Source: Winogradskyella endarachnes
Lineage (GTDB): Bacteria > Bacteroidota > Bacteroidia > Flavobacteriales > Flavobacteriaceae
Assembly (NCBI RefSeq): GCF_009741275.1
Contig: NZ_WOWS01000001.1
Span: 991,796 to 1,055,795, forward strand
Direction of reading: 5' to 3'
DNA length: 64,000 nucleotides
The notes under the pieces are model-generated. The model saw nothing but the letters and a program-made list of their open reading frames with translations. It was not told where the DNA came from and made no database searches. Shown here piece after piece: positions 39,267-44,383 of the stretch. The translations under genes and the position numbers were made by a program. The stretch's first letter is position 1. Each line of letters opens with the position of its first letter.

Positions 39267-40424
39267 TTACTCATTAATTTCAATAAAGTCTTTTCCAAAC
39301 CTAATTATACCATGAACCGAGTTTAATTGAATTTTATTTATGTTAGATGCCTTACCAATTACGAACATTTTAGATAATTCATTTTTTCGATTTGGTTCAA
39401 TCTCAAAGTTTGTTTTATCATAGATGTGCAATGTATCTGTACCATAAGTTTCTATATAATAGCTTGACTTTTCAGGATAAAACAGATTGATTTCAGAGTA
39501 TTCAGTATCCATTTGAAAATATTTAAAACCTTCTGAAAAATTATTTAACCAATATTTTCCATTAAAATCTACAATTTTCACCTCTCTACCTACTTCTCCT
39601 ATAATTATGGTCGTAAATTCACTATCTATATTAAGATGATCTACACTTGCAATTTTTAAGTCACTGACATGATTAAACTTATACGCACCACCTTTTAAAT
39701 CATTACTTCTAAATTTTCCATTAGCAATATCAAAGTTGTTTAAAGGATTGGTTAAACTCATAAATTGTAAATTAGTATTCCTTGCATTCACATTAACTAA
39801 TCCGGTTAAATCTAACTTAAAAGTCATGTGAGAATCAAAAGATCGGATTCTTAGATTAATATCAGCAGGTATTTTTATAATAAAATTAGTTTTTAAAGTC
39901 TTTACATTTTTAGAATCTATTCTTTGTGCTCTTCCTTCACCATCTAATCCTCTTAAATCTTTAAGATACTCTTTTAAAGTTTCTACTTTAGTATCATCAT
40001 TCATTCCATAAAAATACTTTTTAGGTTTCCTCCATCGTATTTCTGAAGTTTCTTTAAAAGTCATGTAATCACCCTCAAAAGTAATACCATGTAAACTTTC
40101 AATACTGTAAACTACATCAGACAAAGGGGTTTCACTAAAGGTTTCAAACAATAATTTTGAATCGACAATTTTTGCAATCGTGTTAATCCCTTCCAATTGT
40201 TCTTCAATTGCTTTCTTAGAGTAATTATCAAACTCGATAGTATAATTAAAATGGATTTTATTGTCTAAAGACTCTTCAATTTTGACGTATACACCATCAA
40301 GATTCAAATCTAATGTAGTAATAGAATTTGCATCAAAGCTTTTGTTAAAAATATTGTGCTGTTGTGCATTAAGTTGCAATAATGTGATGAGCATCAATGC
40401 CAATAATTTAAATAGTGTTTTCAT
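39267..40424 (-). CDS. Secreted beta-rich protein, third gene of a sigma locus
   Basis: 385 residues with a signal peptide (MKTLFKLLALMLITLLQLNAQ). The rest is rich in short strands (VNARNTNLQFM, HLNIDSEFTTIIIG, YSEINLFYPEK), resembling the DUF4097-type repeating beta fold of putative adhesins. The gene start overlaps the anti-sigma-like gene by 17 bases. Gene order sigma, membrane partner, secreted beta-protein suggests the last is the controlled output or a sensor. The domain call is tentative. Confidence 0.65.
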   Translation of the reverse strand: MKTLFKLLALMLITLLQLNAQQHNIFNKSFDANSITTLDLNLDGVYVKIEESLDNKIHFNYTIEFDNYSKKAIEEQLEGINTIAKIVDSKLLFETFSETPLSDVVYSIESLHGITFEGDYMTFKETSEIRWRKPKKYFYGMNDDTKVETLKEYLKDLRGLDGEGRAQRIDSKNVKTLKTNFIIKIPADINLRIRSFDSHMTFKLDLTGLVNVNARNTNLQFMSLTNPLNNFDIANGKFRSNDLKGGAYKFNHVSDLKIASVDHLNIDSEFTTIIIGEVGREVKIVDFNGKYWLNNFSEGFKYFQMDTEYSEINLFYPEKSSYYIETYGTDTLHIYDKTNFEIEPNRKNELSKMFVIGKASNINKIQLNSVHGIIRFGKDFIEINE

Positions 40425-40926
40425 GTTGTTCGTTATTTTGATTTAATATTTTGATGTGTTTTTGTATGTCTTTTAATATTTGAAGTCGCGTTTGAAGGTT
40501 GTCTACTAAAGCTTCAATAACTAAAATATTATTACTATCGTTTTTAAATTGTACTGAAATCTCTTGATAGTCACTATCTAACTCATCTAGCTTTTTTCTG
40601 AAGCGTTTTACCAATTTTTCATCTTCGGTTAAGGCTATAAAATTTTGCCATTCGGTTTCAATATTGGCTAAATATTCGGCTTCAATACTTTCTACTTGCG
40701 CAATTATTGCTTCAGGCTTATTTGTATCTATATCTGTATTAAAAACATTAAAACCAACGGTTAATGCAATAAGCAAAATTGCTGCTACACTTAACCAAAC
40801 AAATGGTTTTCGTTTTGGCTTAGATTGCTTTTTCAGTTGCGTCATAAACTCAGCTCTATGATTATCAGGAAGCTGTTTTAAATTGTCGTCCTCATCATTA
40901 AATAAGTATCTAATATCTCGCTTCAT
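40408..40926 (-). CDS. Anti-sigma-like membrane protein
   Basis: 172 residues. A cytoplasmic N-terminal stretch (1-45) is followed by one membrane helix near 45-65 (PFVWLSVAAILLIALTVGF) and a helical periplasmic part with heptad-like LQ/LE repeats. Size, topology and location (overlaps the sigma stop by 17 bases) are those of ECF anti-sigma factors, though no zinc HxxxCxxC motif is visible. It would hold the sigma encoded at 40910-41458. Confidence 0.7.
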   Translation of the reverse strand: MKRDIRYLFNDEDDNLKQLPDNHRAEFMTQLKKQSKPKRKPFVWLSVAAILLIALTVGFNVFNTDIDTNKPEAIIAQVESIEAEYLANIETEWQNFIALTEDEKLVKRFRKKLDELDSDYQEISVQFKNDSNNILVIEALVDNLQTRLQILKDIQKHIKILNQNNEQHENTI

Positions 40927-41458
40927 TGTATTTGTGTTTTAATAACTCTTGTAGTTTTAGTTTACCTCGTCTCAGATGTGTTCTCGATGTTTTTATAGGA
41001 ATCTCAAGAATCTCTGAAATCTCCTCATGGTCGTAACCTTCTAGCAGATATAGTTTTACTACTATTTTATGTTTTTCGTTAAGTTGCTTAATGGCATTTA
41101 ATATCTCTTGTTTTGAAATTGAACTATCAAATTGCCAATCATCTTCGTTTGTTATTCTTAGTTCTGAAACTTCAATAGCATCAAATTGTAATTGATTTTT
41201 CTTAAGAACATCTAAACATTGATTGATAATTATCCGTTTTAACCAAGCACCAAACGTAGCTTTGGGATGATACTGTTCAATATTTCTAAAAGCTTTTAAA
41301 AACCCTTCTTGCATTGCATCTTTGGCATCTTCATCATTATTAAGATATCTGCAAGCAATAGTAAACATTGCTTGTGCATAACAATCATAAACTTGCATTT
41401 GCGCAACTTCATTTCCTTTTTTGCAAAGCTTTATAAGTTTAGTATCTATTTGATGCAT
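40910..41458 (-). CDS. ECF-type RNA polymerase sigma factor
   Basis: 182 residues. Region 2: YAQAMFTIACRYLNNDEDAKDAMQEGFLKAFRNIEQY. Region 4: KLYLLEGYDHEEISEILEIPIKTSRTHLRRGKLKL. Complete from the ATG at 41458. It leads a three-gene locus with an anti-sigma-like protein and a secreted protein. Upstream on the minus strand a GAAAC-N16-CGTT site (41488-41512) may be its own promoter. Confidence 0.88.
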   Translation of the reverse strand: MHQIDTKLIKLCKKGNEVAQMQVYDCYAQAMFTIACRYLNNDEDAKDAMQEGFLKAFRNIEQYHPKATFGAWLKRIIINQCLDVLKKNQLQFDAIEVSELRITNEDDWQFDSSISKQEILNAIKQLNEKHKIVVKLYLLEGYDHEEISEILEIPIKTSRTHLRRGKLKLQELLKHKYNEARY

Positions 41459-41587: not shown

Positions 41588-42922
41588 ATGAGTGACAATT
41601 ACAATAAACCAGCGTTTAAAAAACTCCTCGAAAAATTACAAGAAGAAAGCTGGCAACTAGAATTATTAATCTCTGGTTTTGCCATTTTTGGTTTGTTTAC
41701 GGCTTATAATTCTATTAAAATTGCAAGTATTGAAGCCTCTGTAAATGGTGTTGTGCATGAAAATATTATTACACAAGTAGCATTGTTTTCTTGTGTTATT
41801 TTGCTAGTTAACCTACTCTTACATGTCTTATTACGAGGTTTATGGATTGGAGCTTTAGGATTGCGATATGTTTCTGGTGATATTGATTATGACTACCTTA
41901 AATACAGCCCAAAATTCACAAAATATTTAAAGAAAAGAGTTGGGTCTTTTGATAGATACATTGGGCGATTAGAGAATTACTGTAGTATTATGTTTGCGGT
42001 TTCGTTCTTACTTATATTCTATGTTTTAGCTTTAACATTTTCTCTAATCGCAATTGTTTTAACAGCGGAATATATAATTGAAAACGAGAGTTTCCCAGAA
42101 TGGTTAAGACTTACACTTGGTGTGCCAATTATGCTTTTTATCTGTTTTGGTATGCTATTAACGTTTTTTGACTTTGCTACGCAAGGTTTATTAAAAAAGA
42201 ATAAATGGATATCTAAATTTTACTTTCCATTTTATTGGGTATTTAGCTTTATAACTTTAAGCTTTTTGTACCGACCAATTGTATATAATTTTTTAGACAA
42301 TAAATTTGGAAAACGATTAAGTTTTGTGCTCTTCCCAATGTTTATTATTGTTAGTCTTTTTTCTTCTGTAGATTATAATTTCTCAAACTATTTTAGCGAA
42401 CAATCTAAATCTAATGCCTATACTACAAGTGATAATAATTATGAAGATTTAGTAAAAGAAGACAATGAACTTTTTATTGATGATGCTGCTATACAATCTA
42501 AAATTATTACAGGTAATTTTGTAAAAGTATTTATTAGATTTACTGAATCTATAGAAGATAATATTTTCAGTTTCAACAAAAACTTAAAACCAGAAAAGGA
42601 CAAACGAGGCATGATTACCGATTTTAGCAAAGGTTATAATAGTGCAAAATTTGATTCTAAAAACCAGAGACAAAAATTCGATAGTTTAAAGAGAGACTAT
42701 CTTAAAACATTCAATAAATTATACACTATTGAAATTGACACACTACAATTTACGTCAGATTTTGTTATTAATAAAAACACTTTAGGTTTTGAAACCTACT
42801 TACCTACAGAATCTTTAAGTAAAGGGAAACACTTACTTACTATTAAATATAATACCTTAAAAAAGCAAGACACTGTAAAACGAGACCTGTTATCTATACT
42901 TTTTTGGTATTACCCAGATTAA
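41588..42922 (+). CDS. Polytopic membrane protein, unknown
   Basis: 444 residues with roughly six membrane helices in residues 20-265 and a soluble C-terminal part of ~180 residues that ends in a beta-rich segment. I recognise no domain. It diverges from the first sigma locus (129 bases between starts) and its stop overlaps that of the anti-sigma-like gene at 42919 by 4 bases. Its place between two sigma loci is suggestive but not proof of a link. Confidence 0.55.
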   Translation: MSDNYNKPAFKKLLEKLQEESWQLELLISGFAIFGLFTAYNSIKIASIEASVNGVVHENIITQVALFSCVILLVNLLLHVLLRGLWIGALGLRYVSGDIDYDYLKYSPKFTKYLKKRVGSFDRYIGRLENYCSIMFAVSFLLIFYVLALTFSLIAIVLTAEYIIENESFPEWLRLTLGVPIMLFICFGMLLTFFDFATQGLLKKNKWISKFYFPFYWVFSFITLSFLYRPIVYNFLDNKFGKRLSFVLFPMFIIVSLFSSVDYNFSNYFSEQSKSNAYTTSDNNYEDLVKEDNELFIDDAAIQSKIITGNFVKVFIRFTESIEDNIFSFNKNLKPEKDKRGMITDFSKGYNSAKFDSKNQRQKFDSLKRDYLKTFNKLYTIEIDTLQFTSDFVINKNTLGFETYLPTESLSKGKHLLTIKYNTLKKQDTVKRDLLSILFWYYPD

Positions 42923-43323
42923 AATGTTATGCGGTTTTTAAAATAATATTTTACCAAAGGGACTTGTATACTTACCATTAGTGCCAATAACACAAAAGCA
43001 TACATTAAAGTTGACGATAAATGACTAGATACATTTTCAAAAAGATTTAAAGACACTTTTGGTAATTCTAAACGGTCTATCCAACTTGCCGTTGTTTCGG
43101 TATTTCCAATAATAACATAACCAATTAAGGCTATAAAACTTCCTAAAATTAAAATCCACACTGATTTTGAAATTAAAGGTTTATAAACCGTTGCATTAGA
43201 AGTAGAAGTAACTTCAATCTGAGACAAAACATTTGCTGTGAAATCTAACGAAGGTTGTTCTAAACCAGCTTCAGACATAATATTATTTATAAATTGCTCT
43301 ATTTTTTTGTTATCCTCTCTCAT
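42919..43323 (-). CDS. Small membrane protein, probable anti-sigma partner
   Basis: 134 residues, two membrane helices (about 48-68 and 108-126) with a cytoplasmic N-terminal stretch of ~45 residues (EQFINNIMSEAGLEQPSLDFT). Position after the sigma gene, with a 14-base overlap, suggests an anti-sigma role. No HxxxCxxC or other motif confirms it. Confidence 0.6.
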   Translation of the reverse strand: MREDNKKIEQFINNIMSEAGLEQPSLDFTANVLSQIEVTSTSNATVYKPLISKSVWILILGSFIALIGYVIIGNTETTASWIDRLELPKVSLNLFENVSSHLSSTLMYAFVLLALMVSIQVPLVKYYFKNRITF

Positions 43324-43892
43324 GTTTCAATCTGTTTTCTGGTTTCAAATATTGTTCTAATATAACTGCCAATTTCTTTCGTGCTCTAAAAAGCTTCACT
43401 TTTATTGTATTCGCTTCAATATTAATAATACTAGATATTTCATCTAAAGATAATTCTTCAAAATAAAATAGCGTTAATAATGCGCTGCTATCTTGTGGTA
43501 ACATATTAACACACCTTTTAATTAAAGCGTGTCTTTCTTCCATTATTATATGGTCTAACGCATTGTCTATAGTATCTAATTTGTTCATGGTAAATTCATC
43601 TATAGCAACATCATTTATATACTTTTTATTCTTTTTTATACGGTCTAGACAAGTATTATAGGTCACTCTGTAAATCCAGGTAGAAAATTTAGAATCACCT
43701 TTAAAATTATTTAATGACTTAAACACTTTTACAAATGTATCTTGTGCCACCTCTTCTGCTTCTTCTCTGTGTTTTAACATTCTTAAAGCTAACGTAAACA
43801 AATTCCTTATAGCAATCTACAAGTTGTGCATATGCTTTGGTATTGCCATTATTTATAGCGTTGATTAGTATTTGGTCGTCGTTGGTGGTCAT
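43310..43892 (-). pseudogene. ECF sigma factor with N-terminal frameshift
   Basis: The ATG at 43892 opens MTTNDDQILINAINNGNTKAY, then reaches LVDCYKEF and leaves the frame. From ~43801 the other frame continues with FTLALRMLKHREEAEEVAQDTFVKVFKSL (region 2) and later DEISSIINIEANTIKVKLFRARKKL (region 4). Read together they make a complete ECF sigma of ~190 residues. Two bases missing, or one extra, in the T-rich stretch at 43793-43806 would explain it. The shorter frame alone lacks part of region 2. Twin ECF promoters lie upstream; the gene would be a pseudogene unless the shift is an error or is bypassed. Confidence 0.85.
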
Positions 43893-43904
43893 TATATTAG
43901 TATA

Positions 43905-43930
43905 GACGACAAAACATTATTTAAGGTTAC
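43905..43930 (-). promoter_or_regulatory. Putative ECF promoter for the sigma gene (GTAACC-N16-CGTC)
   Basis: On the minus strand GTAACC (43930-43925), 16-base spacer, CGTC (43908-43905), then TATA. It is 13 bases before the sigma ATG at 43892, so the leader would be very short. It mirrors the plus-strand site at 43965-43990. Confidence 0.6.
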
Positions 43931-43971
43931 ACTTAGTTAAATATTTATTTTTTTTACCAAAAGTGTAACCT
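43924..43971. repeat. Inverted repeat between divergent genes
   Basis: Perfect 11-bp arms aggttacactt (43924-43934) and aagtgtaacct (43961-43971) with a 26-base centre. Each arm supplies the -35-like GTAACC of one divergent promoter. Confidence 0.8.
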
Positions 43972-43990
43972 AAGTTTAATTAGTATCGTC
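43965..43990 (+). promoter_or_regulatory. Putative ECF promoter for DUF6249 (GTAACC-N16-CGTC)
   Basis: GTAACC (43965-43970), 16-base spacer, CGTCATAA from 43987. Same bases and spacing as the minus-strand site, 48 bases before the ATG at 44039. Confidence 0.6.
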
Positions 43991-44038
43991 ATAAGCTATG
44001 AAACAAATAAAATTAATCAATTAAAAAAATCGAACATT

Positions 44039-44383
44039 ATGAATGAAGAAATATTAATCCCTTTAAGTTTATTCTTATCTATTTTTGGAATTGTATATCT
44101 ATACTTTTCTACCCGAAACAAAGAACGTTTAGCGCTTATAGAAAAAGGTGCTGATGCCAGTATTTTTAACATTGGCAAACGAACTGGCTCCTCTTGGAAA
44201 GTGGTTGTATTAAATTTAGCTTTTCTATTAATGGGAATTGGTTTGGGTGTATTTATTGCTAATATTTTAGATACCTACACTGGTTTAGGTGATGCCGTTT
44301 ATCCTTCTTTAATATTCTTTATGGCAGGTGTTGGCTTGTATATAGGATTTACACAAACTAAAAAACATGTTGGTAAAGCGTAA
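44039..44383 (+). CDS. DUF6249 membrane protein
   Basis: 114 residues, three membrane helices (about 5-22, 54-75, 86-105) and a short charged loop RNKERLALIEKGAD. This matches the DUF6249 family, common next to ECF sigma genes in Bacteroidota. It diverges from the sigma gene and shares a mirrored promoter with it, so it is probably a sigma target. Its biochemical role is unknown. Confidence 0.75.
   Translation: MNEEILIPLSLFLSIFGIVYLYFSTRNKERLALIEKGADASIFNIGKRTGSSWKVVVLNLAFLLMGIGLGVFIANILDTYTGLGDAVYPSLIFFMAGVGLYIGFTQTKKHVGKA

Follow-up and report, generated by a model that had tools for sequence, protein, structure and literature searches.

Promoters with an AAC-type -35 box and a CGT-type -10 box, together with autoregulation, have been described as hallmarks of extracytoplasmic function (ECF) sigma factors (PMC8103513). 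A divergent arrangement is on record for RpoE7 (ECF16) of Sinorhizobium meliloti: the targets with the highest expression are divergent from its own operon, and RpoE7 appears to drive both itself and these neighbours (PMC6180224). In Flavobacterium psychrophilum, the SM6 promoters include that of one ECF/anti-sigma operon (PMC9723704). We describe here a locus in a 64,000-nucleotide stretch of Winogradskyella endarachnes DNA (contig NZ_WOWS01000001.1, positions 991,796 to 1,055,795; hereafter the window), in which twin GTAACC-N16-CGTC sites, pointing outwards, lie between a minus-strand ECF sigma-factor gene and a plus-strand gene for a DUF6249 protein, which is predicted to be a membrane protein. 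Because the ECF hallmarks and the Sinorhizobium case have been described, the kind of device is already known. The locus resembles autoregulated ECF (group IV) sigma factors in that the protein has regions 2 and 4 only, the boxes are of the AAC and CGT types and its own operon is a predicted target; it is unlike them in the very few other matches found in the scanned genomes and in the short, constant spacing between -10 box and ATG. It is also like the SM6 promoters in the ECF/anti-sigma operon that they include, yet SM6, according to the same source, takes in type IX secretion genes. RpoE7 differs in that its targets are four other genes, in another phylum, and in that the evidence there came from overexpression and here comes from sequence. 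A literature text search found no paper on the sigma/DUF6249 pair or its spread, and the only paper it found for DUF6249 was an unrelated plant study. The present observations would tie DUF6249 to one regulator, in a bacterial family where DUF6249 is common.

We scanned the window with the pattern GTAACC-N{15,17}-CGTC and observed exactly 2 matches, one on each strand and each with a spacer of 16. The sites and the repeat in which they are set are as follows.

43905-43930, minus strand: predicted ECF promoter of the sigma/anti-sigma operon, GTAACC-N16-CGTC (exact match, conserved)
43965-43990, plus strand: predicted ECF promoter of the DUF6249 gene, GTAACC-N16-CGTC (exact match, conserved)
43924-43934, no strand: left arm of the 11-bp inverted repeat; the sigma-side -35 box lies in it (complement of 43961-43971)
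43961-43971, no strand: right arm of the 11-bp inverted repeat; the DUF6249-side -35 box lies in it
43935-43960, no strand: A+T-rich stretch between the arms (window sequence)

The 11 bp of one arm, AGGTTACACTT (43924-43934), are the exact reverse complement of the other, AAGTGTAACCT (43961-43971); the adjoining base is mismatched on either side, and both -35 boxes fall within the arms. An initial annotation of this DNA had noted a perfect inverted repeat of 11 bp that places GTAACC on both strands, and a CGTC exactly 16 bases downstream of each; our reading of the sequence and the motif scan bear out both statements. It is possible that the A+T-rich centre could serve as an upstream element common to both promoters. 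We consider it very probable that the twin sites serve a single ECF sigma factor as separate promoters, through which it would drive the DUF6249 gene as well as its own sigma/anti-sigma operon. From sequence, we infer that the sites are promoters, that this sigma factor reads both, that the feedback is positive and that DUF6249 is the main output. That the arrangement arose by chance has a negligible probability, for while single motif matches do occur elsewhere in the genome, 0.05 matches are expected per window, two matches were seen in none of 100 shuffles, and the sites are conserved across loci; we rejected chance on the shuffles and the conservation.

Conservation was examined at three levels. 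In a survey of 119 genomes, including that of the window and with a sigma threshold of E<=1e-30, DUF6249 was found in 43 and the sigma factor in 42, all 42 being among the 43. Both sites were present in 40 of 41 genus loci with DUF6249, and all 40 in-genus loci with both genes had a spacer of 16. The sole DUF6249 genome of this survey without the sigma factor (G025, locus L049), a genus member, holds a DUF6249 remnant interrupted by stops and no site, the circuit there being apparently lost jointly. Genome G073, from outside the genus, has both sites, with GGTC and TGTC as -10 boxes. Across the Flavobacteriaceae, DUF6249 was present in 207 of 397 genomes and 153 of 237 genera. Among the loci that we refer to as named, which are the best 80 of at least 429 confirmed, 79 had a divergent sigma gene; all 79 had the two sites in the form GTAACC-N16-NGTC, and in 60 both -10 boxes were CGTC. 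Of 110 further family loci, taken from the top of the DUF6249 list, 101 had a divergent sigma gene and 99 of these had both sites (the misses are L239 and L264). When genus, named and further family loci were pooled and duplicates removed, 186 loci had a divergent sigma gene; both sites were found in 183, and 178 had a spacer of 16 on both sides. The initial annotation had named absence of the motif from homologous loci as the observation that would undo its proposal, and what we observed in the three sets was presence (40/41, 79/79 and 99/101). In the class as a whole, DUF6249 was found in 52 of 295 genomes. A class sample of 30 loci included 28 from outside the family, with a divergent sigma gene in 22, a same-strand sigma gene in 5 and none in 1. 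With a relaxed pattern (last -35 base free, NGTC or CATC as -10 box, spacer 16 or 17), 17 of the 22 divergent loci, as counted from their listing, had both sites, and in 3 more the sigma-side stretch was unscanned; of the other two, L319 is without a sigma-side site and L330 has CGAC.

Over the 178 loci, both sides share the core TGTAACC-N16-CGTC with NTA after it. Spacer conservation is weak on the sigma side, and a run of A is kept on the DUF6249 side. The AAC -35 box, CGT -10 box and rigid spacer of ECF-type promoters were all found, 178 of 183 loci having spacers of 16/16. The two arms match over 6 to 18 bp (commonest 8), with TGTAACC alone near constant; because of this variation, we regard the long inverted repeat as a by-product of two like -35 boxes. 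The distance between the -35 boxes in the pooled loci is 18 to 328 bases, mostly 26 to 37, and the centre between the arms averages 86% A+T (160 loci). These measurements bear on the proposal that a dimeric repressor or activator uses the inverted repeat as its operator, the CGTC boxes being incidental. The exact 11-bp repeat of the window speaks for such an operator, but the 16-base spacing is kept in 178 of 183 loci while the arm distance spans the whole range just given, and the parted loci described below have a single site per gene. We rejected a dyad operator, which appears very unlikely, on the arm-distance range and the parted loci.

We also looked at loci in which the two genes have become separated, or in which one has been lost. 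There is no divergent sigma gene in 9 of the 110 further family loci, and 4 of these 9 retain one DUF6249-side site. Those four genomes hold a relative of the sigma factor (35-49% identity), located on another contig in G319 and G483, about 68 kb off in G249, and as a same-strand neighbour in G136; the relocated sigma gene in G319, G249 and G483 is preceded by its own GTAACC-N16-CGTC. In three more of the nine (genomes G250, G300 and G301) DUF6249 is present with no sigma match at E<=1e-25 and no site, although the sigma gene may have been missed in two of them because the assemblies are 84% and 95% complete. With G025, this makes 4 of 4 genomes with DUF6249 and no detected sigma factor in which no site was found. 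A named locus, L122, has one DUF6249 site and no sigma gene within the fetched stretch. The parted and lost pairs therefore indicate that each promoter is a separate unit that accompanies its gene and occurs where the sigma factor is present. The initial annotation had proposed that the sigma factor drives its own gene and the DUF6249 gene from symmetrical promoters; conservation and the tracking of the sigma gene by the sites favour the two targets, and the symmetry is unneeded, as the sites come apart. Genome G462 carries two sigma/DUF6249 pairs, L172 and L289, whose -10 boxes are CATC and CGTC, respectively, and which are possibly insulated paralogues. Parted, lost and duplicated pairs amount to natural experiments on joint change in a sigma factor and the promoters that it uses.

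If one sigma factor reads both sites, the two -10 boxes may be expected to change together. Over 183 loci, the -10 box departs from CGTC on both sides in 13, only on the sigma side in 20 and only on the DUF6249 side in 6, for which Fisher's test gives p = 2.9e-7 with kinship ignored. All 6 loci having CATC have it on both sides, as far as the script, which detects a one-sided CATC only after a G, can tell; they come from four related Flavobacteriaceae genera and, with one locus each, from two other families. In solved structures, the sigma specificity loop holds a flipped base of the -10 element (PMC6411747). In the four related genera, CATC boxes accompany a region-2 loop that is changed; NGTC is found in three relatives whose loop has the usual FKG start. 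A ranking of sigma columns by mutual information with -10 type placed columns outside the loop first and was not used. Between the first -10 base and the residue seven positions after the conserved W, there was only a loose relation.

We also asked how many other sites the genomes hold. In G003, the relative whose DUF6249 is most similar, 3.9 Mb of sequence contain two motif matches, both at the twin, and five genus genomes have 19 matches in total, of which 10 are the twins. The strict pattern TGTAACC-N16-CGTC gave 120 matches in the 40 genus genomes with the sigma factor (about 2 twin sites plus 1.0 per genome) and 17 matches in the 28 without it (0.61 per genome), while the reversed pattern gave 1.78 and 1.36 per genome, respectively. 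The extra strict matches being few and no commoner than the reversed pattern, there is no sign of a large regulon, an idea that we set aside; the counts point to a very small one, with the proviso that weaker sites would escape such a search. The window genome has four other N16 matches beyond the twin, the fourth at C1:444863. We fetched 18 extra matches, 3 of them from the window genome and 15 from relatives, picked by eye. All 3 of the former fall within open frames, one of which is just 66 codons long, and so do 8 of the 15 from relatives; the remaining 7 lie outside open frames, and 6 of these stand 23-91 bases ahead of a same-strand frame. Separately, a gene for a CPBP-like intramembrane protease, whose NCBIfam matches are below cut-off, has GTAAC[C/A]-N15/16-CGTC shortly upstream in all five genus genomes in which it was seen (L064, L067, L082, L083 and L085).

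Several observations weigh against the conclusion that the neighbouring sigma factor drives both sites. Its frame is broken in the window genome itself. In three of the 186 pooled loci, one or both sites are missing in the form searched for: L239, L264 and L050, the last being from a genome outside the genus (G072) that retains the DUF6249-side site and has GTAACT-N16-CGTC on the sigma side. Extra DUF6249 copies in G330 and G441, the last two of the nine family loci without a divergent sigma gene, are without a site though each genome holds the sigma factor. A tree-aware count of mirrored -10 changes was not significant, there being 5 usable pairs, with an average of 1.6 favouring and none against. 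Covariation of the loop with CATC, seen in one group, fails elsewhere and was dropped as a rule: the usual loop accompanies CATC in L325, and a changed loop accompanies CGTC in L311 and L314. Finally, G002, in which we found no match for this sigma factor at E<=1e-30, has the motif with a spacer of 15 before the CPBP-like gene, so that another sigma factor may read such sites. This last observation, the intactness of both sites in the window genome despite the broken sigma gene, and overlapping ECF regulons suggested in F. psychrophilum (PMC9723704) are also what favours a different reading, namely that another ECF sigma factor is the main reader of these ECF promoters, the neighbouring one being one of several users or none. 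We judge this improbable, as the sites are absent in the 4 genomes without detected sigma factor and present where the sigma gene has moved away, and as the -10 changes to CATC are mirrored. Control of both promoters by the adjacent sigma factor is thus the reading that we retain, with the reservation that in the window genome this is only putative, because the sigma gene there is broken or mis-assembled.

The genes flanking the sites are as follows.

43310-43892, minus strand: ECF sigma-factor gene, frame interrupted near 43800-43815, open piece 43310-43801 (sigma-70 regions)
42919-43323, minus strand: candidate anti-sigma gene with a 14-base overlap with the sigma gene; two hydrophobic stretches (position)
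44039-44383, plus strand: DUF6249 gene, 114 amino acids, three hydrophobic stretches (Pfam score, hydropathy)

The open piece of the sigma gene has sigma-70 region 2 at residues 3-60 and region 4 at 93-144, and so shows the ECF (group IV) layout of these two regions only, with a linker of fewer than 50 residues. It has a family-level NCBIfam match (TIGR02937, 98.4 bits against a cut-off of 42.9), its best NCBIfam match being SigW-like and below cut-off. The frame that begins with the ATG at 43892 departs from sigma sequence after about 30 codons, and the remainder lies in another frame, at 43310-43801; the window reading frames thus show the gene split over two frames, as the initial annotation, which called it frameshifted, had reported. 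Of 39 other in-genus matches to the sigma factor, 34 are without a stop inside the match and 5 have one TGA. The break in the window genome is either a true mutation or an assembly error. The product of the gene that follows gave no family match in profile searches (Pfam and NCBIfam), and its position suggests an anti-sigma role. The DUF6249 product (PF19762) scored 53.5 bits against a Pfam cut-off of 33; its predicted structure was a four-helix model with a predicted template-modelling score of 0.47, judged too weak to use. A second ECF sigma gene with a following gene lies 2 kb away at 40408-41458 on the minus strand and has no GTAACC-N16-CGTC in front.

As a mechanism, we propose that a signal would free the sigma factor from the candidate anti-sigma protein and allow it to join RNA polymerase, that region 4 would read TGTAACC and region 2 CGTC, and that the sigma factor would thereby raise its own level and the level of DUF6249 protein together. 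In 163 of 183 loci, 9-11 bases separate the end of the sigma-side -10 box from the first in-frame ATG, and in the window genome 12; the sigma mRNA would therefore be nearly leaderless. With transcription starting 5-9 bases past CGTC, as the initial annotation assumed, the sigma leader would be a few bases long. For F. psychrophilum, the reported share of leaderless mRNAs is 5.5% (PMC9723704). A broader proposal, which we put forward tentatively and think somewhat less likely to be right than wrong, is that of a self-contained circuit throughout the class, in which the only conserved targets of the sigma factor would be its own operon and DUF6249, a single uncharacterised membrane protein, DUF6249 would itself be a working part of the circuit and not just one stress gene among many, and the sigma mRNA would be near-leaderless, with about 10 bases from promoter to start. 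In the predicted leader of the DUF6249 gene we observed an eight-codon open frame (43998-44024, plus strand), which by eye is absent from some relatives.
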